Positions 6,435-21,640 of a stretch of DNA of 34,758 bases are shown here, one piece after another. Origin of the DNA: an uncultured Paracoccus sp. GTDB lineage: Bacteria; Pseudomonadota; Alphaproteobacteria; Rhodobacterales; Rhodobacteraceae. How positions within the stretch are numbered: position 1 is the stretch's first letter; every line of letters begins with the position of its first letter. The notes under the pieces are model-generated. The model worked only from the letters and a program-made list of their open reading frames with translations. It did not search any database and was not told the DNA's origin. Location: assembly GCF_937873615.1 (NCBI RefSeq), contig NZ_CALMYP010000053.1, positions 1 to 34,758 of the forward strand, read 5' to 3'. The position numbers and the translations under genes are program-made.

Positions 6435-6562
6435 GGCAAGGACAATAGACAGAACCGTGTCCTCGGCTTCGCCTGCGGGCCGCACCACTTCCGTCGATTG
6501 TCCTTGCCTCTGCTACCCCCACTCTCGGCGAGGCCAGACCCCGAAAACCGAAGTTTTCGGGG
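6435..6562. repeat. Two inverted repeats in a 270-bp gene-free gap
   Basis: A 12-base inverted repeat GGCAAGGACAAT (6435-6446) / ATTGTCCTTGCC (6497-6508) encloses 50 bases. It is followed by a perfect 10-base-pair hairpin CCCCGAAAAC-CGAA-GTTTTCGGGG (6539-6562). Neither has a terminator T-run. They could be protein-binding or recombination sites, or an RNA structure before the gene at 6657. I cannot choose between these. Confidence 0.55.
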
Positions 6563-7438: not shown

Positions 7439-7624
7439 CTAAAGCTCGATGCCGGGTTTCAGATTGCCGTCGCGGTCGAGCCAGCCGCGCGCCTGCGCGC
7501 AGTCCATGCAGATACAGGTTCCGACCGGATCGCCGGGCAGGATCACCGGCGCAAGCATCACCATCGGGTTGACGCTGCCGCATTTGCGGCAGGTCAGGAC
7601 GGGCAGGGGGGTCGGGCCGCTCAT
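7439..7624 (-). CDS. Small zinc-ribbon protein, 61 aa
   Basis: This protein carries two CxxC knuckles: CRKCG near residues 12-16 and CICMDC near residues 38-43. Such pairs typically bind one zinc ion and support DNA, RNA or protein contacts. Its ATG overlaps the ardC stop by 4 bases (ATGA), so translation is coupled to ardC. I know of no function. Given the context it may help antirestriction or DNA entry, but that is only guilt by association. Confidence 0.75.
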   Translation of the reverse strand: MSGPTPLPVLTCRKCGSVNPMVMLAPVILPGDPVGTCICMDCAQARGWLDRDGNLKPGIEL

Positions 7625-8514
7625 GCGGCGGCCCTTTCCTCGATCATCCCGGCGGGTGCGGTTTTCATGAGCCAGTCGGCGGCCTTCTGGGCCTCGGTCG
7701 CGGCCTTGAAGATCATCCGCTTGTCGTCTTTCAGCGCCCGCAACCATGATGCGACATAAGCCGCAGACTGCCCGAAATCAGGCGTCAGGCCGAGTTGCGC
7801 GCAAACCATGACCTGCCCCAATTCGGCGCAAAGTTCCTCGAACGCATAAGCTGCCCGGTCGCTGAACCGGCTGAAGCGGTCCAGCCGGTGCCCTGCGCCG
7901 CTGGCATGGCAATATTCATGGGCGAGGGTGGCATAATATCCGCCCGCATCGTGAAAGGTCGAAACCGGCGGCATATGCACGAAATCCCCTGCGATATCGT
8001 AATAGGCGCGCGGATCGTCGCTGGTGCGGCGTTCGATGCCGGTCGCGTCAAAGAATGCCTCAAGCGCCGGATCTGCCTCGGTGCCGAGATCGCGGGGTTC
8101 CTCGATGGGTGCACCATGATAGGCTTCGGGCAATCCGTCGATCTGGTCGGCGTTGAACACCCGGTAGGACTTGGCATAGCCAATGGTCTTTTCCTCGCCG
8201 GTCTCGGGGTCTTCACGGTCCACGGTGCCATATTTGACGACGATGGCGGATTTCTCGCCCTTGCGGACCTGTCCGCCAGCCTCCTGCGCCTGCCGATAAG
8301 TGAACCAGTAGGGGCTGCGGAAACCCTTTTCGGCCGCCTCTGACCACAGCATCAGAATGTTGATGCCCCGGTACGACTCGCCGGTGCTGCGCCGGGGGAA
8401 GGGAATGCCGCCAGCATCGCCGGTCCAGGGCTTGCGCCATGCCGGCGTGCCCGCCTCGATGCTGGCAATGATCTGATCGGTGACATGCTGATAGATATCG
8501 AACTTCGCTGCCAT
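7621..8514 (-). CDS. ardC: ArdC-type antirestriction protein
   Basis: ArdC proteins bind single-stranded DNA and protect incoming conjugative DNA from host restriction. The start at 8514 has a perfect AGGAGG five bases upstream and gives 297 residues, the usual family length. The N-terminal ssDNA-binding domain begins FDIYQHVTDQIIASIEAGTP and includes SYRGINILMLW and FTYRQAQEAGGQVRKGEKSA. The C-terminal metallopeptidase-like domain has HEYCH (199-203) and EELCAEL (~226-232) as likely metal ligands. It heads a three-gene leftward operon and is immediately preceded by repeat R1. Its location next to the transfer genes fits a leading-region antirestriction gene. Confidence 0.93.
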   Translation of the reverse strand: MAAKFDIYQHVTDQIIASIEAGTPAWRKPWTGDAGGIPFPRRSTGESYRGINILMLWSEAAEKGFRSPYWFTYRQAQEAGGQVRKGEKSAIVVKYGTVDREDPETGEEKTIGYAKSYRVFNADQIDGLPEAYHGAPIEEPRDLGTEADPALEAFFDATGIERRTSDDPRAYYDIAGDFVHMPPVSTFHDAGGYYATLAHEYCHASGAGHRLDRFSRFSDRAAYAFEELCAELGQVMVCAQLGLTPDFGQSAAYVASWLRALKDDKRMIFKAATEAQKAADWLMKTAPAGMIEERAAA

Positions 8515-8525
8515 GTCGGCCTCCT

Positions 8526-8903
8526 TTGCGACGGGCGGCGCGGGCTTGGTGCCTGCTTTCCGCCGATGGGCGAGACCTCTCTGCTTGTCGTCGAAAGGCC
8601 CCATGCCTTTCGGACGGCAAAGCGGGGAGGGCGCAGCCCTGCCCGCGGCCGGGGGGATGACTGTCACGGGGTCGGGAAGGCGGGGTGGTGCGGCCCGCAG
8701 GCGCAGCCGAGGACACGGCCCGCCTGGACGACGACGCGCGGCACGCGCGGCGCTGGCCCCTTGACCGGCATCCCGCCGGATGCGTGGCGGACAAAGGAAA
8801 AGGAAACATCGTCGGGGCGGGGGTGAGCGCGGGCGCAGCCCGCGTCGATCCTCCGGCACGCCCTCAGCCGGTCTTGGCCCGCGCCCTCGCGCGGGCCGCA
8901 GAT
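8526..8903 (-). repeat. Repeat R1: ~378-bp leader repeat before ardC
   Basis: First of four near-identical copies (R1-R4). It fills the whole gap between the stop of the upstream gene and the ardC ribosome site. It contains short hairpins: CGAAAGGC/GCCTTTCG (8592-8612), AGGGC-GCA-GCCCT (8628-8640), CGCGGGC-GCA-GCCCGCG (8828-8844) and GGCCCGCG/CGCGGGCC (8876-8897). Open frames cross it on both strands, but no copy has a ribosome site for them. It is best read as a regulatory leader. Confidence 0.92.
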
Positions 8904-8909
8904 CTGTTC

Positions 8910-9218
8910 TCAATTCGGTGCGTTGGCCAATGGGCGCATGTCAGGCGTCCACGGCAGGGGCGGCCACAGGCGTCCATTATAGCTGATGCGGGCGAGATGC
9001 TGTCCCGCGTCGTCGTAAACCTCGCCGCACCCGAACTGCGACGCCCCAAGACCACTCACATTCCGGGCAGCGACGTAGGCGCGCTGACAATCCTCAAGGC
9101 TGGTGAACCCGCGCAGCCAGTAAGTGCCGGGTGCGGCGTCTTCGCGCCCGGCGTCGATCTCATAGCGCACCCTGAACCGGGTGCGCGCGGTGATCTGGTA
9201 ATCTGTCGGCAAAGTCAT
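8910..9218 (-). CDS. Hypothetical protein, 102 aa
   Basis: I do not recognise this family. The start codon overlaps the stop of the upstream gene (TGATG), which points to translational coupling. The sequence has alternating hydrophobic strands (YQITARTRFRVRYEI, GTYWLRGFTSLEDC) and a segment rich in Gly/Tyr/Trp near the end. It looks like a small alpha/beta domain without signal peptide or membrane helix. It is the last of three leftward genes (9983-10291, 9218-9979, this one) headed by repeat R2, and R1 begins just after its stop. Confidence 0.75.
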   Translation of the reverse strand: MTLPTDYQITARTRFRVRYEIDAGREDAAPGTYWLRGFTSLEDCQRAYVAARNVSGLGASQFGCGEVYDDAGQHLARISYNGRLWPPLPWTPDMRPLANAPN

Positions 9219-9979
9219 CAGGCCCGCGCCTCCATCAATGCCCGCACCGCTGTCAGATGATCGGGATGATCTGCGCCCCAGACCTCGGCTGCCCGGACGG
9301 CCTTGGGATGTGCGCGCGCTTCGGCCTCGGACATGGCAAATGGCTCTAGCCGATAGACACGGCAGGGCAGGAATACGTCCACGCCGCGTCCGGCTCCGGC
9401 ACGGTTATGCGAGAAAAACCAGAACTTGCCGCGACGGATCTCGCCGGTGTCCTTGAAATACTCCCAGAGCTGCGCGCGGTTGAGACTGCCGGAAAAGCTG
9501 GAATTTCCGCATCTGGTGACGTGAAAGCTCCCGCCATGCGTCGTCTGCATGCCGTGCCCTTGCGGCCAGGCGTAGCTGCATCGCTCAAGGCTGCCATCCG
9601 GCATGATGACGAAATCCCCGACGCGCGGTTTTCCGGTCATCGTTTCGCGTGCGGCCTCGGTCTCAGCAGCGATCAGCGTGTTGATCTCGTCCAGATGGCT
9701 GTTGTCCTCCGCCGGACCGATCAACCCGGCGTCGATCAGGTGACGCACGATCATCAGCTTGCAGCCATATTCCGTCACATGCGAGAACCGCCCGCCTGCG
9801 CCCTCGATGGCACCCAGATCATAAATCCACGGATCATGGCCCGGCTCACTGACGGGCCAGTAACGGCAGACGATATCCGCCCCCCATCCGTTCATGGCAA
9901 AGCGGGCGACGGTGCTGCCGTCAGGTTGCGCCTCGAAGCTGAGGCGCGGATGGTTGAACAGTTCATAGCGGGCGGTCAT
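9218..9979 (-). CDS. Hypothetical protein, 253 aa
   Basis: A conserved-looking soluble protein of unknown function. It is rich in aromatic residues, with many glycines (MNGWGADIVCRYWPVSEPGH, FSHVTEYGCKLMIVRHLIDA). It has a basic, strand-rich middle (GKFWFFSHNRAGAGRGVDVF) and a helical C-terminus with AEVWGADHPDHLTAVRALME. A lone GDFVIMPDGSLERCSYAWPQ segment resembles small beta-barrel folds but matches no domain I can name. It starts 3 bases after the preceding gene's stop, with GGAGGG inside that gene. It belongs to an R2-headed operon in the oriT-proximal island. Confidence 0.75.
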   Translation of the reverse strand: MTARYELFNHPRLSFEAQPDGSTVARFAMNGWGADIVCRYWPVSEPGHDPWIYDLGAIEGAGGRFSHVTEYGCKLMIVRHLIDAGLIGPAEDNSHLDEINTLIAAETEAARETMTGKPRVGDFVIMPDGSLERCSYAWPQGHGMQTTHGGSFHVTRCGNSSFSGSLNRAQLWEYFKDTGEIRRGKFWFFSHNRAGAGRGVDVFLPCRVYRLEPFAMSEAEARAHPKAVRAAEVWGADHPDHLTAVRALMEARA

Positions 9980-9982
9980 GGC

Positions 9983-10291
9983 TCAAGCCCTCCGCGCGTT
10001 GGATCTGGCGACGGTCCCGACCTCGGGAGCATCCAGAAGCCAGGCATCCGAAAGCGGGAATTGCCGGTTGGTGCGCAGGTTGCGGACCAGTGCCATATGG
10101 CCGCCAGCGATGCGGCGGGTGGTGAAGCGGCCCCGCTCATAGGTGGCGTATTCGCGCGGAATCCACGCCTCGACGCGCACCGTGACCCCGCGAACCATGA
10201 GGATCGCACCGACACAGATCGTGCCAATTTTGCGGACGCTGCCACCGATCGTCTCGATCCGGTGACGCTGCGGGTTATACTGGCGAAGCAT
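9983..10291 (-). CDS. Hypothetical basic protein, 102 aa
   Basis: The start at 10291 is well supported by AAGGAGAG seven bases upstream. The protein is basic, with 17 arginines or lysines by eye, and beta-rich (GTICVGAILMVRGVTVRVEA), and ends in a basic tail. This is the size and charge of a small nucleic-acid-binding or inhibitor protein, but I recognise no family. It is the first gene after repeat R2 and so the direct downstream target of that leader. Confidence 0.7.
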   Translation of the reverse strand: MLRQYNPQRHRIETIGGSVRKIGTICVGAILMVRGVTVRVEAWIPREYATYERGRFTTRRIAGGHMALVRNLRTNRQFPLSDAWLLDAPEVGTVARSNARRA

Positions 10292-10304
10292 TCAGACTCT
10301 CCTT

Positions 10305-10682
10305 TTGCGACGGGCGGGACGGGCTTGGTGCCTGCTTTCCGCCGATGGGCGAGACCTCTCTGCGTGTCGTCGAAAGGCCCCATGCCTTTCGGACGGCAAA
10401 GCGGGGAGGGCGTAGCCCTGCCCGCGGCCGGGGGGATGACTGTCACGGGGTCGGGAAGGCGGGGTGGTGCGGCCCGCAGGCGCAGCCGAGGACACGGCCC
10501 GCCTGGACGACGACGCGCGGCACGCGCGGCGCTGGCCCCTTGACCGGCATCCAACCGGATGCGTGGCGGACAAAGGGAAAGGAAAGATCGCCGGGGCGGG
10601 GGTGAGCGCGGGCGCAGCCCGCGTCGATCCCCCGGCACGTCCTCAGCTGGTCTTGGCACGCGCCCTAGCGCGGGCCGCAGAT
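10305..10682 (-). repeat. Repeat R2: leader repeat before the 9.2-10.3 kb operon
   Basis: Second copy of the ~378-bp repeat, in the same orientation as R1 and the same distance from the downstream start. It differs from R1 by scattered substitutions, including changes in the promoter-distal hairpin (GGCACGCG in place of GGCCCGCG). The 10683-10804 gap beyond it holds no gene I can support. Confidence 0.92.
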
Positions 10683-10804
10683 TTGCTGCTGGATCAATGA
10701 TGAGGTGGTCGGCTATGCGGGACCAAGCGGAAGTTTGCCGCAGCGCAAAATACGCCAGAGTCCGACGGTCTCTTTTGCTGCGGCGGACCTCACGAGCAGT
10801 ATCG

Positions 10805-11743
10805 TTATTCCGAGAGGAAAGCTGCGATCATGGGGCCGACGGTGTCGGGTGTTTCCCAGAACATGTTATGCCCGTATCCTTCGAAGGTTTCGTGGCGCGC
10901 TTTCGGAAGGATTTGCTTGACCAGTTCCTGGGAGGCTTCTCCGAACAACCCGTCCTCGTCCCCCCAGAGGATGAGCGTCGGCGCTTCGATCCGCTCTGCA
11001 TAAGGCGACCAATCTGTCATCGTCAGACCCTCGAGAACGCCCGTCCAGACGTGCTTCGGCGTCGCCGCGCTTTCTGCGCGCTCACGGTCGATGAAGTCGG
11101 CAGGGACAGGATTCGGGTTCCAATACCAGTCCTTCATGAACTGGCTATCGGGGTCCAGCGTCTCCGGGAGTTGCGGAACATTCTCCCAGAGCCAATCGCC
11201 CGCAGCCTCGGGCGTGGTGGCCGCAGTGCTGATCAGAACGAGCCTGTCGACCATGTCCGGATGTTGCGCCGCGAAGAGGGCGGCAGTCATCGACCCGAGC
11301 GAATGACCCACGATATCCGCCGTTTCAATCTCCTGCGCGACCATGAAGCGCTCGAGGTCATGGCTGAAATCCATGAGGGTGTAGCAGCATTCTGGAGCGG
11401 CAGATTCACCGTGTCCGCGCAGGTCGACGGCATAGATATGACGATCCGCCAGTTCGGGCGCGAGAAGAGACCAGCTCCGGCTATTGTCGGTGTAGCCGTG
11501 TATCAAGACCAACGGGTCTCCCTCCGTGTTGCCCATCTCGACATACCCGATGGTCTGCCCCGACGGCAGCGTGGCCGTCTGCCGCGCGCTATCCCATTCG
11601 TCCTGAGACGGTATGGCAATCGTTTCGGCGGACGCCGCGCCAACGCCGAATGCTGCCACGAATGCGACAGTTGTCACTGCAACAATCTGCGACCGTGTCA
11701 GGACGGAAGATCTCGAAGAAGCGTTGTGCATTGGGTTCCTCAT
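10805..11743 (-). CDS. Exported alpha/beta-hydrolase
   Basis: A 312-residue alpha/beta-hydrolase with an N-terminal signal peptide: basic start, hydrophobic core IVAVTTVAFVAAFGVGAAS, and a likely cut after ASA. Mature-domain motifs are the oxyanion turn HGYTDN, the nucleophile elbow GHSLGS (Ser), an Asp in LILWGDEDGLF and a His in GYGHNMFWE, so the catalytic triad is complete. It should hydrolyse a small ester, lactone, amide or haloalkane in the periplasm or outside the cell; the substrate cannot be read from sequence. A second Met four codons in is an alternative start. It has no functional link to its neighbours. A lactonase acting on acyl-homoserine lactones is conceivable given the LuxI 16 kb away, but nothing in the sequence shows this. 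Confidence 0.88.
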   Translation of the reverse strand: MRNPMHNASSRSSVLTRSQIVAVTTVAFVAAFGVGAASAETIAIPSQDEWDSARQTATLPSGQTIGYVEMGNTEGDPLVLIHGYTDNSRSWSLLAPELADRHIYAVDLRGHGESAAPECCYTLMDFSHDLERFMVAQEIETADIVGHSLGSMTAALFAAQHPDMVDRLVLISTAATTPEAAGDWLWENVPQLPETLDPDSQFMKDWYWNPNPVPADFIDRERAESAATPKHVWTGVLEGLTMTDWSPYAERIEAPTLILWGDEDGLFGEASQELVKQILPKARHETFEGYGHNMFWETPDTVGPMIAAFLSE

Positions 11744-12106
11744 CACGACTGAATTCCGCCGAAGCCATAGCAGACGGCAGGAGACATCAGCAACGCCGCC
11801 GATCGCGCGCGCTTCAGCGGCGTTCGGCGCAATTTTGCGGCCCTCAGACGTCCATTGCCGACGGGGGACCGCAGCTCGACTGGCTGCCGTGCGCTTTTGA
11901 GCATGAGAGCATCGCGGGTGTGACAAGAACGTCAGTATCGTAGGAACGACGAGCTGCCGGCGATCGCTGCGGTTAGCTCGCGCACGCGCGTGCTGCGGAC
12001 GCGAAGAACATCACCGACTGCACGATCGGTTTGGGCTCATCGCGTCGTTCTGCCGATCGGATTTTCCCCGAAACGATCCCCAGAAATTGTGGATAAGTCC
12101 GCTGAC

Positions 12107-12157
12107 AAAGAAAGGGGCCGCCCGAGGGCGGCCCAGTTGAACCTTCGTCGCAGAAGG
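12107..12157 (-). terminator. Double-hairpin terminator after the methylase-like gene
   Basis: Read on the minus strand, a small hairpin (CCTTC...GAAGG, 12142-12157) is followed by a strong one, GGGCCGCC-N4-GGCGGCCC (12115-12134), and then CTTTCTTTG. The same small hairpin in the same context recurs at 17.8 kb. The remaining gene-free stretch (11744-12106) shows no feature I can support. Confidence 0.8.
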
Positions 12158-12236
12158 AATTGAACAATAGAGAAACGAATGCCAAAAAATATTCAGCAGG
12201 ATCGAGCGTAAGCGGCTGATCTGCCTGCGTCAATCG

Positions 12237-13025
12237 TCATTGCCAGACGGCGCGTGCGGCGGCCGGCGCCGGGCTGCGTAGCAGCTCGCGGCGCATCGCT
12301 TGCGCGGCCTTTTCGGCTTCCGCCGCCTGCCGTTCGGCCTCGCGCTGTTTGGCAAAAGGGTGGCCGTTCAGCGCATGGAACACAGGCGCGGCGGGGGTGA
12401 ATGCCTGATCGTAGGTTTCGAGTGACAGGCTGTTGCCGTTGATCACGCGGCCGGCGACGCCACGCGCGGCGATCTGGACATAGGCCATGTGGAACGTGGC
12501 GCGGGCCAGCTCCACGGCCTCTACCCAGATTTGCCGGGCCGGATCAAAACCCTGTTCCTCGATCACATCGGCGACGGCCAGCACCATTCCGCCCGCGCCA
12601 GCGGCGGGTTCCGAGATGGTGATGAAGCCCTGCGCCTCGATCCGGGCCGAAACATCGCCAAGAGACATTTCGGCCATCATGCGGCTGACCTCGTAGGGGG
12701 TGAAGAACTGACCCAGGCGGGCATCGAGCGCGCCGATCTCGGCCGCGACCTGGCCGAAGAAATCGACGCTCCCGGCGGCGATGGTCTGCAAGGCCAGCGC
12801 CATCATGTCCGGCATCCGGCGCACATCGTCCTTGTTCGGGAACATCCCGACACAGGACATGTATTCGGCCTCCAGCCGGTCGCGCTGCTCTGCAAAGGGC
12901 GAGGCGCGCTTTGCCAGGGCGCAATACGCCATTTCGCAGAAGATGCGGAAGATCTCGGTGCGGGTCTTCGAGCGGTCGAAGCTGTCGAGCGCACGCAGAA
13001 AATCGGTCACGGCGGGATGGGCCAT
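12237..13025 (-). CDS. N6-adenine-methyltransferase-like protein lacking the catalytic motif
   Basis: It has 262 residues and resembles the core of HsdM/N-6 DNA methylases. GQFFTPYEVSRMMAEM is the pre-motif helix, and SEPAAGAGGMVLAVADVI is motif I for S-adenosylmethionine binding. A motif-II-like acidic turn, VEAVELARATFHMAYVQIA, and NGNSLS follow. Where NPPF/NPPY (motif IV, needed for base flipping and catalysis) should come, the sequence reads FHALNGHPFAKQ. The C-terminus is a charged helix. It may therefore bind the cofactor and DNA or methylase subunits without methylating, for example as a decoy or antirestriction factor. Start chosen at 13025. It ends a five-gene leftward run headed by R3. 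Confidence 0.8.
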   Translation of the reverse strand: MAHPAVTDFLRALDSFDRSKTRTEIFRIFCEMAYCALAKRASPFAEQRDRLEAEYMSCVGMFPNKDDVRRMPDMMALALQTIAAGSVDFFGQVAAEIGALDARLGQFFTPYEVSRMMAEMSLGDVSARIEAQGFITISEPAAGAGGMVLAVADVIEEQGFDPARQIWVEAVELARATFHMAYVQIAARGVAGRVINGNSLSLETYDQAFTPAAPVFHALNGHPFAKQREAERQAAEAEKAAQAMRRELLRSPAPAAARAVWQ

Positions 13026-13054
13026 GTCTGAATCCTTGGGCAATGGGGCAGGGC

Positions 13055-13074
13055 GCCGCGCCCGAAGGCGCGGC
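13055..13074 (-). terminator. Intercistronic hairpin GCCGCGCC/GGCGCGGC
   Basis: A perfect eight-base-pair stem with CGAA loop lies just past the stop of the 106-residue gene. No U-run follows, so it may be an RNA-stabilising or REP-like element rather than a terminator. Confidence 0.55.
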
Positions 13075-13081
13075 CTCGGGC

Positions 13082-13402
13082 TTACTGGTCGCGGGCGGTG
13101 CTCAGAGAGAGCATGATCGCTGTTTTGTTGGCGGCCACGTCGTTGCGGATCTGCTCGTAGGGCTTTGTCCAATCAACGGAGACTTGCAGCAGGGCATCCA
13201 TGATGGCGAATGCGCCTTGCCGGGTTCGACGATCACCGCCCCTGCCGCCGCCGATGCTCATGCCGGATGCGACATGAACCACTTGCCAGCGTTTATGCAG
13301 CTTGAAAACGCCCAGCCCTGCGCGACAATAGGCCGTCACGCTCCTGTCGCCATAGATGCTGTTCGGGATGGTGATCATCTGTTGGGAATGGGTCATGGTC
13401 AT
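13082..13402 (-). CDS. Hypothetical protein, 106 aa
   Basis: Unrecognised. It starts at 13402 (MTMTHSQQMITIPNSIYGDR); a second ATG two codons later is equally possible because no strong ribosome site is visible. The first half is strand-rich (TAYCRAGLGVFKLHKRWQVV). A glycine/arginine loop GGGRGGDRRTRQG follows, then a helical C-terminus. The loop could contact nucleic acid. It lies between two similar GC-rich intercistronic hairpins, in the R3-headed gene run. Confidence 0.65.
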   Translation of the reverse strand: MTMTHSQQMITIPNSIYGDRSVTAYCRAGLGVFKLHKRWQVVHVASGMSIGGGRGGDRRTRQGAFAIMDALLQVSVDWTKPYEQIRNDVAANKTAIMLSLSTARDQ

Positions 13403-13438
13403 ACCGTGGTCATTTGAGTGGGGACGGGTTGCTTCAAG

Positions 13439-13462
13439 GCGCCGCGCCCGCTGGCGCGGCGC
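13439..13462 (-). terminator. Intercistronic hairpin GCGCCGCGCC/GGCGCGGCGC
   Basis: A perfect ten-base-pair stem with CGCT loop sits between the genes at 13470 and 13402. Its core sequence matches the hairpin at 13055-13074. No U-run is present. Confidence 0.55.
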
Positions 13463-13469
13463 AGGACGG

Positions 13470-14072
13470 TCAGATGCGGGACCAGTCCCGCGACATGACG
13501 CGGCTGATGCGGCAATCTGCGCCGGTCTCGATGCAGGTGAAGAAGGTGGTCGCGCGGTTCGCCCCGGCGAAACGCTCCTTCTTGACGCGGAAGGTGCGGC
13601 CCTCGGTGCCATCGCTGAACCGCAACGGCTCGGCAAAGCGGATCACGTCGCCGGGCTTCAGACGGCGGCCAGTTCGGGCGGCGTGTTTGCGGCACCGCTG
13701 CCGCCAGTCCCGCGCGTATTCATGTGTGGTGGGGGACAACAGGTCGAGGAGCTTTGCCGGGGCGTCGCATTCGACCGGACCGGCGGTTTCGTCCATGTCC
13801 TTGTAGCCCCAGCCGCCGCCTTCCCGGCGGGTCAGGAACACGGCCGCGAAGGTATAGCCGCCCGTGGCGTCGGTCTCGAAACTGCCGCTGGCATCGGTGC
13901 CGCTCACCAGTCGCCCGGTCGCGGGCTCGCTGCGCACGGCGACATACCAGACGGACCCCTTGCGGCTGATGAGGACGGGGAAACCCCGTCCTTCCTCGTT
14001 GTCCCATGTGCAGAGGCGCGCAATTTCGTCGCGGATGCAGGCGGGGGTGTGGTTATAGACCAGCCAGCCCAT
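13470..14072 (-). CDS. Conserved accessory protein, 200 aa (resembles DUF6927-type plasmid proteins)
   Basis: The ATG at 14072 follows the previous stop by one base and has GGAGGGG upstream; the longer frame to 14102 is not needed. The N-terminus MGWLVYNHTPACIRDEIARL and the central GYKDMDETAGP...ECDAP...LLDLLSPT signature, plus DWRQRCRKH and a beta-barrel-like LKPGDVIRFAEPLRFSDGTE, recall a family of alphaproteobacterial plasmid proteins I remember as DUF6927. That name is from memory and unverified. Function is unknown. The C-terminal part looks like a small SH3-like barrel. It is a member of the R3-headed operon. Confidence 0.8.
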   Translation of the reverse strand: MGWLVYNHTPACIRDEIARLCTWDNEEGRGFPVLISRKGSVWYVAVRSEPATGRLVSGTDASGSFETDATGGYTFAAVFLTRREGGGWGYKDMDETAGPVECDAPAKLLDLLSPTTHEYARDWRQRCRKHAARTGRRLKPGDVIRFAEPLRFSDGTEGRTFRVKKERFAGANRATTFFTCIETGADCRISRVMSRDWSRI

Positions 14073-14073
14073 A

Positions 14074-14703
14074 TCAGCCCCTCCGCTTTTCGATTGCGGC
14101 AAGGATTTGCTCGCGCAGATAGGTCAGGGGATGGGCGTCAAAATCATCCTCGCGGAAGTGTTCCGGGTCGTCATAGCCGGGGATTTCGTCGTGGATGCGC
14201 TCGGCCAGCAGGTCCACCAGATCGGGCAGGCGGGTATTGGCATACGCATGGCAAAGATCGCGATACTCGACCAGCTCGCCGGTCAGGTCCACGATGCGAG
14301 CAAGGGCTTCGCCGATATCGTCCGACGCCGCGTCATGGACGATCTGCCATTCCTGCGCCTCGCGATGAAACCCATAGACCGACCAGAACGCATGTTCGCC
14401 GGGATCGCAGACCTCGATGCTGCCGCCCATGTCGCGGACGGGCGAGACACAGAAGCCGGAAAAGTCGAAGACGGTGGTGCCGGACGGCAACCCGTTCCAG
14501 TCCTGCGCCAGCGCGGCTTCATCAATGCGCTGGCCCGCCCCCAGATACTGAACGGCGCTGACCCATTTGGCCTTCACCTGCGCCTTCTCGCGCAACTCAT
14601 CGAGGGTGAATGTGCCGAGATATTCCCCGGTCACATCGAATGCGGCCCAAAGATTGAGCCAGCGGCCTTCGTTCCGGGTCAGCTTGTCAAAATTGCGTAG
14701 CAT
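14074..14703 (-). CDS. Hypothetical acidic protein, 209 aa
   Basis: First gene after repeat R3. The start at 14703 is preceded by GAAGGA at nine bases, a ribosome site shared with the R4 copy. The protein is acidic and Trp-rich (RWLNLWAAFDVTGEYLGTFT, EVCDPGEHAFWSVYGFHREA). It has a helical second half ending LTYLREQILAAIEKRRG. It shows no metal motif, signal or membrane segment. I do not recognise a family. Acidic soluble proteins in leading regions are sometimes DNA mimics, but the charge pattern here is only moderately acidic. Confidence 0.75.
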   Translation of the reverse strand: MLRNFDKLTRNEGRWLNLWAAFDVTGEYLGTFTLDELREKAQVKAKWVSAVQYLGAGQRIDEAALAQDWNGLPSGTTVFDFSGFCVSPVRDMGGSIEVCDPGEHAFWSVYGFHREAQEWQIVHDAASDDIGEALARIVDLTGELVEYRDLCHAYANTRLPDLVDLLAERIHDEIPGYDDPEHFREDDFDAHPLTYLREQILAAIEKRRG

Positions 14704-14720
14704 CTCGCATCGTCCTTCTC

Positions 14721-15097
14721 TTGCGACGGGCGGTGCGGGCTTGGTGCCTGCTTTCCGCCGATGGGCGAGACCTCTCTGCTTGTCGTCGAAAGGCCCCATG
14801 CCTTTCGGACGGCAAAGCGGGGAGGGCGCAGCCCTGCCCGCGGCCGGGGGGATGACTGTCACGGGGTCGGGAAGGCGGGGTGGTGCGGCCCGCAGGCGCA
14901 GCCGAGGACACGGCCCGCCTGGACGACGACGCGCGGCTCGCGCGGCGCTTGCCCCTTGACCGGCAGCCCCCCCGGATGCGTGGCGGACAAGGGAAATGGA
15001 AACATCGTCGGGACGGGGGTGAGCGCGGGCGCGGCCCGCGTCGATCCCCCGACACGTCCTCAGCCCATCATGGCCCGCGCCTTCGCGCGGGCCGCGA
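14721..15097 (-). repeat. Repeat R3: leader repeat before the 12.2-14.7 kb operon
   Basis: Third copy, in the same orientation. It shares an extra dozen bases with R4 on the gene-proximal side (GCATCGTCCTTCTC), including the ribosome site, so R3 and R4 are the closest pair. Confidence 0.92.
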
Positions 15098-15149
15098 ATG
15101 ATCTGTCTGGCCGCAGGCCGTCGCGGCAGCGACTGGATGGAACGGCGAA

Positions 15150-15169
15150 GGGGCGGCTTTCGCCGCCCC
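15150..15169 (-). terminator. Strong hairpin after the 63-aa gene
   Basis: The stem GGGGCGGC-TTTC-GCCGCCCC is extended on both sides by AACGGC/GCCGTT with one small interruption. It lies 8 bases past the stop at 15177. No long U-run is present. Confidence 0.65.
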
Positions 15170-15176
15170 CTTGCCG

Positions 15177-15368
15177 TTACTCCTGGTCGTCCGACCGCTT
15201 GGGGAAGGCGACCATATCCACGCCGGGGAACATGTTGTGGCGGACCTGGATCGAGGTGATCTCGCCGACGGGGTTGCGGTTGATGAAGAGGACACCGCAG
15301 TCGTCCCAGAAATTCTTGCCGTCCTTCTCGCCGGTTTTGACCTTGAGCTTCATGTTTTCGGTGGCCAT
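15177..15368 (-). CDS. Small hypothetical protein, 63 aa
   Basis: The ATG at 15368 has AGGAAAGGA about seven bases upstream, a clear ribosome site. The protein begins MATENMKLKVKTGEKDGKNF and continues with WDDCGVLFINRNPVGEIT and a beta-like SIQVRHNMFPGVDMVAF. The layout suggests a small beta-barrel or cold-shock-like fold, which might bind single-stranded nucleic acid, but I see no diagnostic RNP motif. It is monocistronic, with a strong hairpin behind it. Upstream (15369-15793) no gene is supported. Confidence 0.75.
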   Translation of the reverse strand: MATENMKLKVKTGEKDGKNFWDDCGVLFINRNPVGEITSIQVRHNMFPGVDMVAFPKRSDDQE

Positions 15369-15793
15369 TGGATTTTCCTTTCCTGCCTGGCGTTTCGATG
15401 AAACCCCTGCGGACAGGGCAGAAAGAGCGGCTGTCAAAGGCGAATTTGGTTCGCGAGGAATGGCCGCAGGCCAGGGGAAATTCGTCGTTGAAGGCCGAAG
15501 GCCGTCAGCCGCGCTGCCCTGTCATGTTTCATCGGGAAGAAACGCCCCTTGCAGGACAGGACCAACCGGCCACGGAGCCAAGCGATCGACGAACCGGCAA
15601 CGGGAAGGATGGCAAGGGCTGGGGATGTGCATGTCGTGTCCGGACCAACCGCAGCGCCTATGGTCTCGCCCGAAACCGCCCCCGCCGTTTCTGTTCCCGG
15701 CAGGACGCTCGCGTGCGGGACGGTGAATGACCGGGTTTGGCAGGGGCGTCGGAAGCCTGCCCGATGATCCGGTTATGCGCGACGGCTGAAGGC

Positions 15794-16022
15794 CGGCGCA
15801 TCGCTCGATCCTTGTCGTCTCGCTCTGCGCCTTGCGCCTGCGTCAGCGGTCCCGCCCGATAGGGCCGAGATCGTCGGGGCAGGGCGCGCAGGACCGGCGT
15901 TCGGGGGGATGGCTCGGGACGAGACATTCAACCGGACGGCGCAGCCGCGCGTTTCGCCCCGATCAGCTCGGGTGGAGGCCGTGAGGCCGGAACCGGGGGC
16001 GCGGCCCGAAGGGGACGCCCTG
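15794..16022 (+). repeat. Repeat E1: ~229-bp repeat (90-bp core 15939-16022)
   Basis: It matches E2 (21776-22004) over its whole length and E3 (26706-26795) over the ~90-bp core, all in the same orientation. The core starts GC-N-GCAGCCGCGC and keeps inverted arms GCCGCGC/GCGCGGC around an inner GGCC-N4-GGCC. Its right end abuts the start codon of the gene at 16023. Confidence 0.85.
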
Positions 16023-16973
16023 ATGCAGATTGATCCGATGTTGATGTCTCACTACGGTTCAGATCGACAGCCTTGCGGCCAGACGGGAATTTCACAGATG
16101 AAGCACGATACCCGCCCCCCGTTCAGGTCTCTGCGCGAGCTTGTTCTGAAAGAGCTTCAGGGCGAACGACCTCTTCTTGTGTGGGATAATGATCCAAAAT
16201 TTGCATCTGAGAAACTGAACACCATCCTTGAGAGCGAAGCCTATATCCTTGATCGTCATGCTCGGGACTACCTTCAGGATCTGGCCTCTGGCCTGAGCAT
16301 CGAGGATTACTATCGGTCGATCGCGAATACGCGGATGCCTTTTCAGTCTGTCTGGGTCGAAGCGATTTTCGACTTCCCTGACGATGGTGGCGAAACCTCG
16401 GTCGGCGCGCTGGTGACGGATGAAGGCGACGGCATCAAGGTTTTCTCGATGCTCTCGGTGCACGGTTTCAAGCCCTGGACGCCAATCTATAGCGGTGCCG
16501 AAGTCGTATTTCACCCGGACGGGCATGTCTCCTGTTCAGAAACGCCTATTGCCTACTTCAACAACCTGATGGGCGACGCCGGAGGTCTGTCTGTAAAGGA
16601 CATGCTCAACGACGACGTGGACAAGGCCCTGCGGATCGGGGGGCTGTTCGCTGTTCTGTGTGCGGCACTTGCCCGTCCGAAGATCCTTGACCGCGAGGCC
16701 ATTCGCTTTCTGCCAAAAAGCGAGGTCAAGGCGCAGATTGCGGCGGGGCGCAGGGCACCGCGCTTTGCGCCGTCGGTGATCCGTCTTTCGCGGGCGGGCC
16801 GGTCGGAGAGAGACGCGCATCACGGGGCCGGCGGGGCCGCGTCAGCGGCCCGCTCCGCCCATTGGGTGCGTGGCCATCTTTTTCTGGCGCGCAATGGCCG
16901 ACTGACCTGGCGGCGGGCGCATGTCCGGGGTGGGGGCGATCCTACGGAGCGGGTCAATTACGTTACTGAATAG
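16023..16973 (+). CDS. Hypothetical protein, 316 aa, lone rightward gene of the island
   Basis: I do not recognise this protein. The start at 16023 directly follows repeat E1, with GAAGGGGA as a possible ribosome site; a later ATG at 16098 (MKHDTRPPFRSLRELVLKEL) is a serious alternative because it begins the globular part. The middle has alternating strands (SVGALVTDEGDGIKVFSMLS, AEVVFHPDGHVSCSETPIAY). The C-terminus is basic and ends RNGRLTWRRAHVRGGG, a tail type common in phage and mobile-element proteins. It is the only gene between 7.2 and 21.3 kb that runs rightward, so it was probably acquired separately, possibly through the E repeat. Confidence 0.7.
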   Translation: MQIDPMLMSHYGSDRQPCGQTGISQMKHDTRPPFRSLRELVLKELQGERPLLVWDNDPKFASEKLNTILESEAYILDRHARDYLQDLASGLSIEDYYRSIANTRMPFQSVWVEAIFDFPDDGGETSVGALVTDEGDGIKVFSMLSVHGFKPWTPIYSGAEVVFHPDGHVSCSETPIAYFNNLMGDAGGLSVKDMLNDDVDKALRIGGLFAVLCAALARPKILDREAIRFLPKSEVKAQIAAGRRAPRFAPSVIRLSRAGRSERDAHHGAGGAASAARSAHWVRGHLFLARNGRLTWRRAHVRGGGDPTERVNYVTE

Positions 16974-17045
16974 GGCTGGTCCGATCGGCGCGTGGGGCCT
17001 TGAAGCCAGTTGATCGAACGCGCTCCGGCTTCGGAACATGACAAG

Positions 17046-17065
17046 GCGGCCCCCGAAGGGGCCGC
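17046..17065 (-). terminator. Hairpin terminator after the 84-aa gene
   Basis: GCGGCCCC-CGAA-GGGGCCGC is a perfect eight-base-pair stem, 12 bases past the stop at 17078 on the minus strand, followed by CTTGTC. Confidence 0.65.
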
Positions 17066-17077
17066 TGGATTGCTTGT

Positions 17078-17332
17078 CTATGCTCCGTCGGGAAAGAGTT
17101 TCAGCAAGGCAAAGAGCATCCCCATTGCCACGATGAGCAGGCTCCCGAGCTTGATCGTCATACGCTGCTCAAGAATCGTGAGGCGTGTATCGAGCGATTC
17201 ATTTGTCACGATGTCTCGCGGCGTGCTTTCTCTCGCAAGGTCGATCAGCGTATCGACCTGCTCTGCTGAAAACCCGGCGGTCTTCAGTCTCTGTGCGAAG
17301 GCGTGCGTGTCGAAGTTCATCGTGTGGGCCAT
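17078..17332 (-). CDS. Small membrane-anchored coiled-coil protein, DUF1640/CCDC90-like
   Basis: An 84-residue protein with AAGGAGA at ideal distance before the ATG. The N-terminal FDTHAFAQRLKTAGFSAEQVD is the typical opening of DUF1640-type proteins. A short helix predicted to coil follows (ESLDTRLTILEQRM), then one membrane span (LGSLLIVAMGMLFALLKLF) at the end. The family is widespread in alphaproteobacterial phages and plasmids, with no established role there. The protein is likely anchored in the inner membrane with most of the chain in the cytoplasm. Confidence 0.85.
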   Translation of the reverse strand: MAHTMNFDTHAFAQRLKTAGFSAEQVDTLIDLARESTPRDIVTNESLDTRLTILEQRMTIKLGSLLIVAMGMLFALLKLFPDGA

Positions 17333-17766
17333 GTTGGTCTCCTTGGTTCCAATATAGGTGATTGCCGCTATTCAGAGAAGGCTTATCGCCCGCCCTGCGC
17401 GGTCGGAGGATTCGGACACGCGAGGTCAGGGACGCCCGGAACGGGCGCTTGCAAGCCGCGCTGGCGCGGCGCCGTCCTTGACCCGTGTGGAATAATCCAG
17501 AGACCGTGTGGGGTGGTGCGGCCTGGCCCCGGCCGATGTTCGGCCGGGTTAACAGCCGGGCACAATCGAAGCCGGTGCGTCCTGGTGCAACGAGCGGGTG
17601 GAGACGCCGCGCCGGGGGGCGCGGCTCCGCGCGAAGCGCCGGCCCTGGCGATCCTTTCCCGGCGGATGCCGGGGGAGGGGGGCAGGGCAACTCAGCCCGA
17701 CAGCAGCAGAGAGTGGATATCACATATCGGCTGGCAATCAGGGGTGGACGATAGCGGCAGGCGGAA
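17333..17766. other. Gene-free stretch with a nine-base-pair hairpin
   Basis: Apart from the hairpin CCCGGCCGA-TGT-TCGGCCGGG (17528-17548) and a GCCGCGC/GCGCGGC palindrome near 17455-17470, I see nothing I can name. The open frames here lack ribosome sites and have no plausible protein character. It is the upstream region of the gene at 17332 and probably carries its promoter. Confidence 0.5.
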
Positions 17767-17817
17767 AAAGAGCGCCCCACGAAAATCGCGGGGCCAGTTG
17801 ACCTTCGTCGCAGAAGG
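17767..17817 (-). terminator. Double-hairpin terminator after the 158-aa gene
   Basis: On the minus strand CCTTC...GAAGG (17802-17817) is followed by GCCCC...GGGGC (17774-17794) and then CTCTTTTTCC, a clear U-run. It has the same organisation and the same small hairpin as the terminator at 12.1 kb. Confidence 0.85.
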
Positions 17818-17882
17818 AAAAGGGTCAGTGCGAGAGGCGAAGAAAGAAAATTACAACAACCCTATGGCGAAGTGACGTAAAG

Positions 17883-18359
17883 TCAGCCACACTGAAAATC
17901 CTCCCTGTTGGACTGGCGGCAGGTCCGGCCTGCCGCCACTTTTTCAGAGGCAGCATGACCGTTCGGGTTTACGCGCCGCAGGGTGAAGGGCAGGGCATCG
18001 AGGGCGATCCGCCCGGCCTCAAGACTGTGCAGGAAATCCAGCAGATAGACCGGATCGGCGGGATAGGGTGCGCCGTCCCATGCCGCCCGGACCTTGCGCC
18101 GCTGCCGTGGTGGCATGGCGTCGATCAGGCGGCGGGCACGCCGCCACTGATCGGCGCGGCGCTGGCGGCTGCGGTCCTCGTGCGCCGCCCAGGCATTCGC
18201 GCGGGCCTGCATCACATCATCGGGGCTTTTCTGCCGGGCCGCGATCTCGGCGGCAAAGAGCGGCAGGGCGTCCCGGTCGGCTGTCTGTCTGCGGGCCAGC
18301 GCGGCCCGCTTGCGGGCGGTATCGGTGAACGGGTGACGGGCCGATCTGATGAAGCGCAT
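17883..18359 (-). CDS. Hypothetical Arg-rich helical protein, 158 aa
   Basis: A strongly basic, Ala/Arg-rich helical protein (TARKRAALARRQTADRDALP, HEDRSRQRRADQWRRARRLI, PPRQRRKVRAAWDG). It has a more hydrophobic C-terminal helix pair, DPVYLLDFLHSLEAGRIALD. This composition suits nucleic-acid contact, but no named fold is visible. It starts 3 bases after the stop of the 77-residue gene, so these two form an operon, probably continuing from the ParB-like gene. A strong double-hairpin terminator follows. Confidence 0.7.
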   Translation of the reverse strand: MRFIRSARHPFTDTARKRAALARRQTADRDALPLFAAEIAARQKSPDDVMQARANAWAAHEDRSRQRRADQWRRARRLIDAMPPRQRRKVRAAWDGAPYPADPVYLLDFLHSLEAGRIALDALPFTLRRVNPNGHAASEKVAAGRTCRQSNREDFQCG

Positions 18360-18362
18360 CGG

Positions 18363-18596
18363 TCAGCCTCCCGTGGCGGAACGTGCGGCGACGGCCTCGA
18401 TCCCGGCCCTGATGCGGCGCAGATCGGCGGCTTCCGCATGATCGCCGTGGGTCACGGCGCGAGACAGGTCGGCCTCGATCTGGGTGAGATTGTCTTGGGC
18501 GGTTGCATATTCGCAGCCGATGGCATGGCCGACGCGGTAGCCCCCGCCGCAGGCACAGGACAGCCCGTGCCATGATTTCTCCCGTGCATAATCCAT
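18363..18596 (-). CDS. Small Cys-containing protein, 77 aa
   Basis: Start chosen at 18596 because AAGGAC lies at good spacing; the longer frame runs through a hairpin. The N-terminal part has CACGGGYRVGHAIGCEY, three cysteines and a histidine that could bind a metal. A long helix follows (TQIEADLSRAVTHGDHAEAA onward), likely a coiled coil. No family is recognised. It sits between the ParB-like gene and the basic 158-residue gene. Confidence 0.7.
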   Translation of the reverse strand: MDYAREKSWHGLSCACGGGYRVGHAIGCEYATAQDNLTQIEADLSRAVTHGDHAEAADLRRIRAGIEAVAARSATGG

Positions 18597-18632
18597 CTGT
18601 GCTGTCCTTTCTGAAACCGGGTTGCCGGGACC

Positions 18633-18657
18633 GGGGCGCGCGATCTTCGCGCGCCCC
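18633..18657 (-). terminator. Strong hairpin after the ParB-like gene
   Basis: A perfect 11-base-pair stem GGGGCGCGCGA-TCT-TCGCGCGCCCC lies 7 bases past the stop at 18665. Without a U-run it may attenuate rather than end transcription into the next gene. Confidence 0.6.
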
Positions 18658-18664
18658 GCTGTTA

Positions 18665-20515
18665 TCAGGCCATGCCCTCGGGCAGCCATGCCGCGATGCG
18701 GGCCTCCTGCGCCTCGGTGATCCCGAGCGCCTTGCGCGTGTCGGCATCACTGAACAGGGTTTCCAGCTTTGCCGCCTTCTCGCCCTTTTTCAGCTTGGCG
18801 AAGCTGGTGGCGGTGGGGTGATCGGCGGCGAGGTCCAGCAGATCGCCCCACAGGTCGTTGAGGTAAGGGCCTCCAACGCGGGAAAAGAAGTTCGCGGCGG
18901 TGGGCGTCCAGACCTCGCGGATCGCGGGCTTGGTCTCCTTGTCGATCAGCGCGGCCAGTTCATCGGACCCGCCCCGGTAATGCGCGGCCAGCATCCGCAC
19001 CAGTTCGCCCCGAACATGCTCGGCTCCCTTGGAACGGAAGGCGCGGAAGGATTTGGCAAGGTCCTTGCCATACATGTCGCGCGGCGGATTGGCGGTCAGG
19101 CGGTCGTCCAGCGCATATCCCTCGGCCTCGGTGGTCGGCCAGTTCGGCACGTCCTCTGTCGCAAGCCCGAACGGCTTGCGCCAGGCAAGGCCGTGGCTCA
19201 ACTGATAGGCCAGCAGGTCGATCAGCAGTTCGGGATCGCGCAGCGCCGCATTCTGCCGTGCGCCCTGCGCCACCCGGCCCAGATCGTCGCGCAGCGCGTT
19301 GCTGATGGGCGATTTCGGAGCGGCATCGACGGCGCTGCCGTCGCGGCTGCGGGCGGCATGTCCGGTCAGTATCTCTGCGGCAATCGCGGCCTCGCGGTCC
19401 TCGGCCCGAACATAAGCCGCCTGCACGGTCAGTTCGCCGCGACTGTCCACGAAGACGAACAACCCGGCATGGTCGCGCTGCGCATCGGCGAAGTCGCCCC
19501 GCGCCAGTGTGTCCAGCGCATCCAGTTCCGCCTGTCCTTCCTCGTCCAGCGCCTCGGCCTCGGCCAGTTCCGACAATTCGTCGTAACGCTCGGCCTGTTC
19601 CTCGGACAGTTCGCCCTCGATCCGGTAAATGCGGTCCAGCTTCGAGGTCACATCATAGCTGATCCACGACTCCGGGCTGGTCTCGACCCATGTCCAGCCA
19701 TGGCCGATGGCCTCGGCGTCCATCGCCAGCTTCTCGGCAAAGAGCCGGTCCAGCAGCGCGCCATCGCCCAGAAACACCTCGTTTGCGAACAGATCGCGGG
19801 TGATGGGGCCGCCCGCGCCTTCATAGGCGGCAAGCCCGACATAGATGGCGCGGCGGTCGGTGTCGCGGATCGCCTCGGGTTGCAGAAGCTGTTTCAGGCG
19901 GTGGGCCGACACGTCCTGACTGCGCACGCGGTCCAGAATATCGAGCGCAAGGGCTTCGTCCTGGGCCACGGTGAAGCATTTCGCGGCCTCAAGGGTGATC
20001 TCGCCCGCTTTCAGCGCATCGAGGATCGGGGCGGGCAGGGCCGCCAGCGCAAGGCGGCGGTAAACATGGGCCTCGGTCACGGCGAACACGCGGGCGATGG
20101 TCGGCACATCGCTGCCGGTGTCGGCCATCCGGCCATAGGCGCGGATTTCATCGGCGGGGTGCAAATCCTCGCGGGCCGCGTTCTCGACGCTGGCCCATGC
20201 CCGCGCGGTGGCCGCGTCGGGGGCCAGACGGACGGGGATTTCGGCCAGTTCCGGTCGGCGGTCCAGCAGATCGGCGTGTTTCTCGGTGGCGCGGATCAGG
20301 GCGCGCAGGCGGCGACCGCCCGCGACGATCCCGACATTACCGGCCTCGTCGGCAAGCCCCGCGAGGTTCTGCAACAGACCCACGGCCACGATGCTGTCGG
20401 CCAGTTGGTCGATGCGGTCGGGATCAACGTCCTGACGGGGGTTCATGTCCGAGAGATAGAGCGCGTCCAGCGGGAAATACTGGATCGGGGCGGTGGTGAT
20501 GGCACCTTGTTTCAT
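18665..20515 (-). CDS. Large ParB/Spo0J-family protein, 616 aa
   Basis: The N-terminal third is a ParB nuclease/CTPase-like domain. LDALYLSDMNPRQDVDPDRI opens it, GGRRLRAL is the ParB box (GxRR), and ENAAREDLHPADEIRAYGRM is box II. A helix-turn-helix follows (VPTIARVFAVTEAHVYRRLA). The remaining ~400 residues are acidic and helical with no motif I know. Plain ParB proteins are about 300-350 residues, so the C-terminal extension is large. No parA lies beside it; the only ParA-like gene in the window is 13 kb away with its own partner. It may be a DNA-binding accessory protein of the transfer element rather than a partition protein. Start chosen at 20515 with AAGGA upstream. Confidence 0.87.
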   Translation of the reverse strand: MKQGAITTAPIQYFPLDALYLSDMNPRQDVDPDRIDQLADSIVAVGLLQNLAGLADEAGNVGIVAGGRRLRALIRATEKHADLLDRRPELAEIPVRLAPDAATARAWASVENAAREDLHPADEIRAYGRMADTGSDVPTIARVFAVTEAHVYRRLALAALPAPILDALKAGEITLEAAKCFTVAQDEALALDILDRVRSQDVSAHRLKQLLQPEAIRDTDRRAIYVGLAAYEGAGGPITRDLFANEVFLGDGALLDRLFAEKLAMDAEAIGHGWTWVETSPESWISYDVTSKLDRIYRIEGELSEEQAERYDELSELAEAEALDEEGQAELDALDTLARGDFADAQRDHAGLFVFVDSRGELTVQAAYVRAEDREAAIAAEILTGHAARSRDGSAVDAAPKSPISNALRDDLGRVAQGARQNAALRDPELLIDLLAYQLSHGLAWRKPFGLATEDVPNWPTTEAEGYALDDRLTANPPRDMYGKDLAKSFRAFRSKGAEHVRGELVRMLAAHYRGGSDELAALIDKETKPAIREVWTPTAANFFSRVGGPYLNDLWGDLLDLAADHPTATSFAKLKKGEKAAKLETLFSDADTRKALGITEAQEARIAAWLPEGMA

Positions 20516-20589
20516 GGGGTCATATCCTTGTTTGCGACTGTGGTTTCGTGTTATCGGTGCCCCACCCGTGATCGGGTGAGGCGTGAGGG

Positions 20590-20754
20590 TCACATGACCC
20601 CGTGCTGGTTCAGGAAGGCGCGGCCGATCTTTGCCGAGGGACCGCCCTTCCTGATAAGCGCCCACGCTTCCGCGATGCGCTGTTCAAGCCATTGATTGAT
20701 TGTTCTCACCTCCTTTCCGGTTGCCGTGACAGTTGACCGGCCCACCCGAAGCAT
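20590..20754 (-). CDS. Possible small ORF, 54 aa
   Basis: An open frame from the ATG at 20754 ends in a protein-like stretch, TINQWLEQRIAEAWALIRKG then GPSAKIGRAFLNQHGVM. A perfect AGGAGG lies inside it at ~20707-20712, followed by an in-frame GTG that is too close to be a normal start. The true start is therefore unclear. The C-terminal half looks real; it lies between the zinc-ribbon gene and the ParB-like gene in the same direction. Confidence 0.4.
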   Translation of the reverse strand: MLRVGRSTVTATGKEVRTINQWLEQRIAEAWALIRKGGPSAKIGRAFLNQHGVM

Positions 20755-20775
20755 GACGCGGGCCGGGTTCGGGGA

Positions 20776-21249
20776 TCAGTAATCGGAGGGGAACATGATG
20801 GTCAGGACGCGCCGGGTGACGGCAGGGTTGGCGGGTGCGGGCGAGCCGTAAACCAGTTCCTCGTCGTAAAGGTCGATCTTCCAGAACAGCCGGACGGTCA
20901 GCACGGTGACGGCGCCGAAACCATGATCGCCGTAAGGGTCATTGTCGGGCGTGAAGCTGCTATCCCCGGCCACCGCCATCAGCGCGGCGGTCACGAAATC
21001 CCGGCCCATCGCGTTGACGGCAGAGGTCACGACAACCTGCCCGCGCAGATCGCTTGCGGTCCCGGTCAGCAGCCCCGCACGAAAACGGTCGTTCTGCTCC
21101 GCGATCTTCACGGCCTCGGCGGTCGGGAACCCGTGATCGGGCGCGGCGGTCTGGCATTGCGGGCAATGGCTCGGGCAGGTCAGGGCGTTGATGATCTTGC
21201 CGCAGGCGGTGCAGGAAAAATCAACGGCAACGGTATCTTCGGCCAACAT
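20776..21249 (-). CDS. Zinc-ribbon protein of unknown function, 157 aa
   Basis: First gene after repeat R4. I prefer the ATG at 21249 (GAAGGA eight bases upstream) over the one at 21255, which is too close. The N-terminus holds a four-cysteine ribbon, CTACG...CPSHCPQC (~residues 13-33), likely binding zinc. The rest is an alpha/beta domain (GQVVVTSAVNAMGRDFVTAA) with a conspicuous acidic loop DNDPYGDHGFGA and a strand-rich end (GAVTVLTVRLFWKIDLYDEE). I do not recognise it. By position and leader it belongs with the ardC-type accessory genes. Confidence 0.75.
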   Translation of the reverse strand: MLAEDTVAVDFSCTACGKIINALTCPSHCPQCQTAAPDHGFPTAEAVKIAEQNDRFRAGLLTGTASDLRGQVVVTSAVNAMGRDFVTAALMAVAGDSSFTPDNDPYGDHGFGAVTVLTVRLFWKIDLYDEELVYGSPAPANPAVTRRVLTIMFPSDY

Positions 21250-21265
21250 GGGCATCGTCCTTCTC

Positions 21266-21640
21266 TTGCGACGGGCGGTGCGGGCTTGGTGCCTGCTTTC
21301 CGCCGATGGGCGAGACCTCTCTGCTTGTCGTCGAAAGGCCCCATGCCTTTCGGACGGCAAAGCGGGGAGGGCGCAGCCCTGCCCGCGGCCGGGGGGATGA
21401 CTGTCACGGGGTCGGGAAGGCGGGGTGGTGCGGCCCGCAGGCGCAGCCGAGGACACGGCCCGCCTGGACGACGACGCGCGTCCCGCGCGGCGCTTGGCCA
21501 TTGACCGTCAGACGCAGGGATGCGTGGCGGACAAGGGAAATGGAAACATCGTCGGGGCGGGGGTGAGCGCGGGCGCAGCCTGCGTCGATCCCCCGGCACG
21601 TCCTCAGCCCATCATGGCCCGCGCCCTCGCGCGGGTCGCG
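21266..21640 (-). repeat. Repeat R4: leader repeat before the zinc-ribbon gene
   Basis: Fourth copy, in the same orientation. It is most like R3 but with a divergent middle (around 21490-21520), while both ends and the hairpins are kept. Confidence 0.92.

Follow-up and report, generated by a model that had tools for sequence, protein, structure and literature searches.

Repeated leaders on a Paracoccus contig belong to a widespread DNA hairpin family that may act as single-strand promoters for establishment genes

The window analysed here, the whole 34,758-nt stretch of a contig from an uncultured Paracoccus sp., carries genes for a relaxase, MobC and a VirC1/ParA-like ATPase, followed by ardC, whose product belongs to a known antirestriction family, and by further leftward genes set behind four long repeats, R1–R4 (Table 1). 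A type III restriction-modification pair and a gene for an ImpB/MucB-type polymerase flank the repeats on the right. A PADLOC scan that covered the window's ArdC, DUF3768, ParB-like and unnamed genes behind the leaders returned nothing. The gap between mobC and virC1 presumably holds oriT; a motif scan of this interval found no nick-site motif, and only plasmid p1PARARS4 aligned with the gap along its full length, others matching in short pieces.

Table 1. Repeats, hairpin elements and neighbouring genes in the window
Feature	Coordinates	Strand	Remarks
MobA/VirD2-like relaxase	1842..3788	-	PF03432
MobC	3785..4474	-	
Presumed oriT interval	4475..4989	none	position presumed from its flanks (mobC, virC1)
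VirC1/ParA-like ATPase	4990..5754	+	PF07015
Fifth family member	6431..6510	-	P-type, shorter; between VirC1 operon and ardC
ArdC	7621..8514	-	ArdcN and MPTase-PolyVal; ATG 8514-8512; behind R1
R1	8525..8900	+	leader of ardC (gene on -)
R1 structured region	8559..8791	+	from the consensus fold of 20 R-type elements; closing stem TCCGCC/GGCGGA
40-nt core of R1	8682..8721	+	identical at 10461, 14877 and 21422
Basic 102-aa gene	9983..10291	-	without Pfam match; behind R2
R2	10304..10679	+	leader of 102-aa gene; then leftward 253-aa and 102-aa genes
209-aa gene	14074..14703	-	without Pfam match; behind R3
R3	14721..15095	+	leader of 209-aa gene; DUF6927 gene next
ParB-like gene	18665..20521	-	ParB_N, HTH_ParB; further behind R4
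DUF3768 gene	20776..21255	-	behind R4; ATG at 21255 or 21249
R4	21266..21639	+	leader of DUF3768 gene; ParB-like gene next

A repeat search of the window returned R1–R4 as direct repeats at 8525, 10304, 14720 and 21265, all on the same strand, with R2, R3 and R4 showing 96, 95 and 94 % identity to R1 over 374–376 nt. Each abuts, on its left, the ribosome site of a leftward gene, and the four near-identical, co-oriented leaders described in the first-pass annotation are thus present. That annotation also placed a zinc-ribbon gene behind R4; there is a gene at this position, but its Pfam match is to DUF3768. No further full-length copy was found in the 3.86-Mb assembly, and the closest plasmid match is p1PARARS4 of a Paracoccus (97 % over R1). 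Searching Rfam gave 0 matches in the window at the gathering score and only weak, chance-level matches at E values up to 5.

The repeats are members of a widespread and apparently undescribed family of DNA hairpins, defined by a core of approximately 30 nt within the hairpin, GGTGCGGCCCGCAGGC-GNA-GCCGAGGACACGG. In covariance model searches, 67 of 292 Rhodobacterales genomes matched, with 125 copies spread over 92 contigs; among 398 Pseudomonadota genomes, 11 had at least one copy. The window's own genome is included in both counts. Exact copies of the core are found across Alpha-, Beta- and Gammaproteobacteria, and on Tn4371-like elements as well; the first-pass suggestion of an alphaproteobacterial counterpart to known single-strand promoters was therefore too narrow. 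Its proposal that every gene set behind such a repeat is a candidate for anti-defence was too broad. When 111 nt around the core was compared with plasmids, 225 records matched, 186 with at least 90 % identity, spanning Phaeobacter, Paracoccus, Pseudomonas, Citrobacter, Klebsiella, Enterobacter and others, and a pattern requiring 28 of the 30 core bases was found in at least 118 genome stretches and in 8 IMG/VR contigs. A 13-base string from the core was absent from the open-licence papers searched, and among the titles and abstracts listed there for leading-region single-strand promoters, none described this hairpin family.

The arms flanking the core vary from group to group, yet pair with one another. 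Using purpose-made regular expressions, we assigned arm types to 252 copies, a pool of genome loci and pattern loci that may overlap: T (78), P (107, a heterogeneous group), R (39) and other (28). The name Tn4371-like for the T group rests on the gene content of locus L029 and on the available part of PMC2789088. The window itself holds a fifth member (6431–6510), overlooked by the first-pass annotation, which has 35 of the 40 core bases, scores an E value of 5e-18 with the covariance model and is related to R1–R4 mainly in the core; a small rightward gene is called nearby, from 6657.

There is good support for both the family and its structure. The fold of R1 on the + strand exceeds 100 dinucleotide shuffles by 4.99 s.d. 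(z -4.99), and its structure is therefore not due to chance; its complement reaches only 1.74 (z -1.74). With the + strand taken by convention as the entering one, R1 shows the stable stem-loop on that strand that marks Frpo-type promoters. Among 79 elements selected for their core, which is invariant in this set because of that selection, 139 alignment cells had changed on both sides of a stem pair against 50.0 after shuffling, and the stem covariation score was 0.339 against 0.130 (shuffled) and at most 0.123 (slid), while the tally of pairs with both sides altered, 8, was not above that in shuffles (7.0). In 110 distinct model hits gathered with no exact-core selection, the score was 0.396 against 0.131. 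Double changes among these hits are found in the apical hairpin 2, whose stem varies in sequence and length; of 124 copies, 103 allowed it to be parsed, and 73 of these carry a C-GNA-G loop. Hairpin 1 shows one-sided changes only and is putative. The alignment of R-type elements, from which 13 identifier prefixes were dropped as duplicate or atypical, kept 21 references, 20 of them aligned, and the closing stem is retained in 18–20 of these 20 relatives; the T-type alignment comprised 35 of 55 elements. A recent duplication devoid of function was also considered and is unlikely, given the stem covariation in diverged relatives.

The strand that carries the core is the template strand of the left-hand gene, and it is this strand that folds better. 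Fold z-scores of the first 18 non-redundant copies of each type favoured the core strand in 18/18 T, 16/18 R, 15/18 P and 11/18 other copies, the preference in the last being weak (p 0.054); 18 random stretches had mean z-scores of -1.00 and -1.10. Consensus energies for the core strand and its complement were -77.0 vs -46.1 kcal/mol in T and -64.2 vs -54.4 kcal/mol in R. Wobble pairs in the stems point the same way in a strand-symmetric count (G.T vs A.C 22:5). Counts of pairs found from both strands came to only 12:2 in T and 9:4 in R, a model-fitted count gave 38:16, and with structures predicted on the complement the ratio was reversed (T 17:21, R 14:26). When it relies on predicted structures, the wobble test varies with the strand that was folded. 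Structure in the template strand is what a hairpin promoter on entering single-stranded DNA would need.

Gene context was obtained from 119 of 120 non-window copies. Only 2 of the 252 copies lie inside a called gene with either of two gene callers; the final calls come from a caller trained on annotated genes, which gave a wrong start for ardC. The distance from the middle of the core to the start of the left-hand gene is 204–221 nt in 52/65 T, 185–200 nt in 21/30 R and 111–191 nt in 17/19 other copies, and 150–165 nt in only 13/43 P copies. The left-hand gene of P-type elements points the opposite way in 55 of 98 cases. When downstream genes were tabulated, as the first-pass annotation had proposed, DUF932, DUF3768, ArdC and ParB-like genes were frequent, forming the largest clusters among 157 left-hand genes (59, 19, 11 and 10, respectively), with all 59 DUF932 genes matched by the L029 protein. 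Right-hand neighbours are on the + strand in 106 and on the - strand in 124 of 230 cases. A tRNA-Arg sequence lies within 700 nt of 35 of the 252 copies, 33 of them P-type; ARAGORN confirmed a tRNA-Arg(ACG) in six of seven such loci scanned, the seventh ending before the tRNA.

The 3′ arm of T-type elements contains TTGACG-N16-TACAGT (a TTGATG variant was scored in the box scan), with the -35 box in a 10-bp stem and the -10 box over an internal loop closed by GTCGC/GCGAC. Read as ordinary duplex, these boxes point away from the downstream gene; in a hairpin of the entering strand, they would direct transcription toward the relaxase side, into the DUF932-ParB genes. R1–R4 retain a -35-like TTGACC in the 3′ arm (8761–8766 in R1) but lack a clear -10 box, and R1 has no pair of hexamers with at least 4/6 matches each at a spacing of 15–19 nt. 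This hexamer scan had no valid positive control, as none was found in two F regions presumed to hold Frpo. The case for a single-strand promoter is stronger for the Tn4371-like T type than for R1–R4.

By convention, the relaxase gene enters the recipient last, and the transfer direction and entering strand predicted here rest on that convention. Relaxase genes (PF03432 only, within 80 kb on the same contig) could be linked to 54 of the 125 copies, and 50 of the 54 lie beyond the relaxase start, on the expected leading side, in keeping with the earlier reading of the repeats as leaders of leading-region genes, direction being set by convention. All 35 leading-side copies more than 4.5 kb from the relaxase gene are on the strand opposite to it, as are three nearer ones. 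The remaining 12, one of them the copy at 6431–6510, are on the same strand; all are 3.0–4.0 kb away, beside VirC1, on contigs that all have a VirC1 match (nine P, two R and one other), and 10 of the 12 still precede a gene. On the non-leading side, two copies are on the opposite and two on the same strand. The annotated plasmid loci hold nine distal copies on the strand opposite to the relaxase gene (L029, one; L030, one, with an LPD7-domain gene taken as the relaxase gene; L189, two; L190, one; L193, four), and the single copy of L031 is on the same strand. The oriT of a Tn4371-family ICE was mapped to the traF-traI gap according to the available text of PMC11448139, and the element of L029, together with its DUF932-ParB genes, is on the traF side.

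Placement mostly away from gene starts or outside transfer elements had been named beforehand as evidence against a promoter role, and the outcome is divided: T, R and other copies mostly sit at gene starts, but the tRNA-linked copies and the 12 same-strand copies, which are on the predicted non-transferred strand, go the other way. A single-strand promoter is contradicted or leaves matters unexplained for these two sets, and the strand of the 6431–6510 copy contradicts it within the window.

On balance, we lean toward reading the family as putative single-strand promoters of establishment genes, with R1–R4 as structured single-strand DNA leaders. Under this model, oriT would be nicked between mobC and virC1 and the + strand would enter the recipient, where each R would form a long imperfect hairpin capped by the conserved domain. 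Of the two strands of the resulting duplex promoter, the non-template one would come from the 3′ arm and the template one from the 5′ arm, which runs on into the single-stranded gene; host RNA polymerase would start at the hairpin and, ahead of second-strand synthesis, transcribe ardC and the remaining establishment genes in the direction of oriT. Conversion to duplex would then remove the hairpin and turn the genes down, and the cap may be recognised by a host factor.

We regard it as unlikely that the repeats are instead an ordinary duplex module, that is, a normal promoter with an operator for a plasmid regulator, in which the orientation rule merely reflects gene orientation. Such a module would account for repeats before many unrelated genes and for the copies on the non-transferred strand, and it has a precedent in the CUP repeats of IncN plasmids, described as bound by ArdK in the available part of PMC6289460; however, a covarying stem and strand-biased folding are not expected of a duplex operator, and the clear T-type promoter motif faces the wrong way in duplex.

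An action in RNA, either within the 5′ untranslated part of the downstream gene's mRNA or through a divergent RNA, appears improbable. The near-fixed distance to the start codon in T and R would suit an mRNA leader, and EGeRS1 of pLS20, a structured repeat that may act at the level of single-stranded DNA or of RNA, precedes ardC and further establishment genes according to the available text of PMC8708921. Structure in the template strand near the start codon argues against an mRNA leader, since the mRNA would bear the complement, which folds worse; the repeats lack an Rfam match at the gathering score, and a divergent RNA would have no consistent right-hand gene. About as improbable is a role as a single-strand site at which second-strand synthesis is initiated (primer or primosome), or as a protein-binding hairpin for replication or transfer, with expression secondary, which would fit a cap that suggests a recognised structure, copies on either strand and the primer synthesis also reported, judging by its title, in the Frpo paper of Masai and Arai, but which alone explains neither the start-codon spacing nor one copy before each of several operons.

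More tentatively, the family may represent a new class of single-stranded DNA switch that Alpha-, Beta- and Gammaproteobacteria share on their conjugative plasmids and ICEs, with a cap read by a host factor marking an establishment regulon and the cap alone sufficing to locate unknown establishment and anti-defence genes. A searchable core outside the known Frpo/ssi set would extend early recipient expression to environmental plasmids and ICEs and, being conserved, would allow unknown establishment genes to be traced by sequence. It also raises the question of what recognises an approximately 30-nt DNA cap common to three bacterial classes.

The closest functional parallels are the single-strand promoters described for F and ColIb-P9 (PMC9849209, available part), with which, if transfer runs in the conventional direction, the family would share a leading-region position, the template logic of the entering strand and a hairpin on that strand. 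Near-identical copies occur in both, Frpo1 and Frpo2 of F being reported there as 92 % identical and about 5 kb apart, and the F leading region likewise holds DUF932 and ParB-like genes. No sequence relationship between the two was found, in line with the first-pass annotation, the best model score in 20 kb of the F leading region being 9.5 bits (E value 0.66). They differ further in that the available text on Frpo mentions no conserved cap, in the wider host range of the present family and in its promoter activity being putative. A 2024 survey of leading regions used known Frpo/ssi sequences and box motifs for its own search, and the word Alphaproteobacteria is absent from its main text as available (PMC11541004).

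EGeRS1 of the pLS20 family resembles R1–R4 in being, according to the accessible part of PMC8708921, a repeated and structured element ahead of ardC and further establishment genes; it is longer, Gram-positive and has the transferred strand as the non-template strand, whereas the template strand is predicted to be transferred here. CUP elements are likewise conserved repeats upstream of antirestriction genes in a leading region but, as far as the available text of PMC6289460 describes them, are duplex sites bound by ArdK, and the covariance model had no match in the IncN plasmid R46. The early promoter hairpins of phage N4, as portrayed in the available part of PMC4496689, are much smaller and serve a virion polymerase; what they have in common with our cap is the loop form alone, a C-G closed loop that in N4 needs a 5′ G and a 3′ A and is recognised by an RNA polymerase.

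The R-type leaders, the arm class of R1–R4, carry two additional hairpins between the conserved core and the gene start (about 8590–8660 of the window in R1); the arms of one vary yet stay paired, and the other is GGGC-GNA-GCCC. A second, GC-rich family of dispersed repeats (D4–D6), separate from R1–R4, is also present in the window, R3 and R4 each having one of its copies to the right. The ImpB/MucB-type polymerase gene (at 28927) has its 3′ end within a further repeat of 245 nt, which is perhaps a remnant.

Features of the window beside the R-type leaders
Feature	Positions	Remarks
Small gene	6657–7025	122 aa called; rightward; next after the opposite-strand element (6431–6510)
D4–D6, GC-rich copies	15793–16014, 21775–21995, 26706–26789	
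245-nt repeat	26461–26705, 28928–29172	91 %

Relatives of the small gene are likewise placed after family elements at six other loci; one examined relative returned no Pfam match.

Several loci linked to tRNA-Arg, L298, L303 and L304 among them, have a P-type copy ~200–250 nt downstream of tRNA-Arg(ACG), and GCGACACATAGTT-like motifs are repeated in the intervening spacer, that of L298 also holding an inverted copy. No transposase was identified; these motif-bearing spacers are reminiscent of the ends of Tn7-like transposons.
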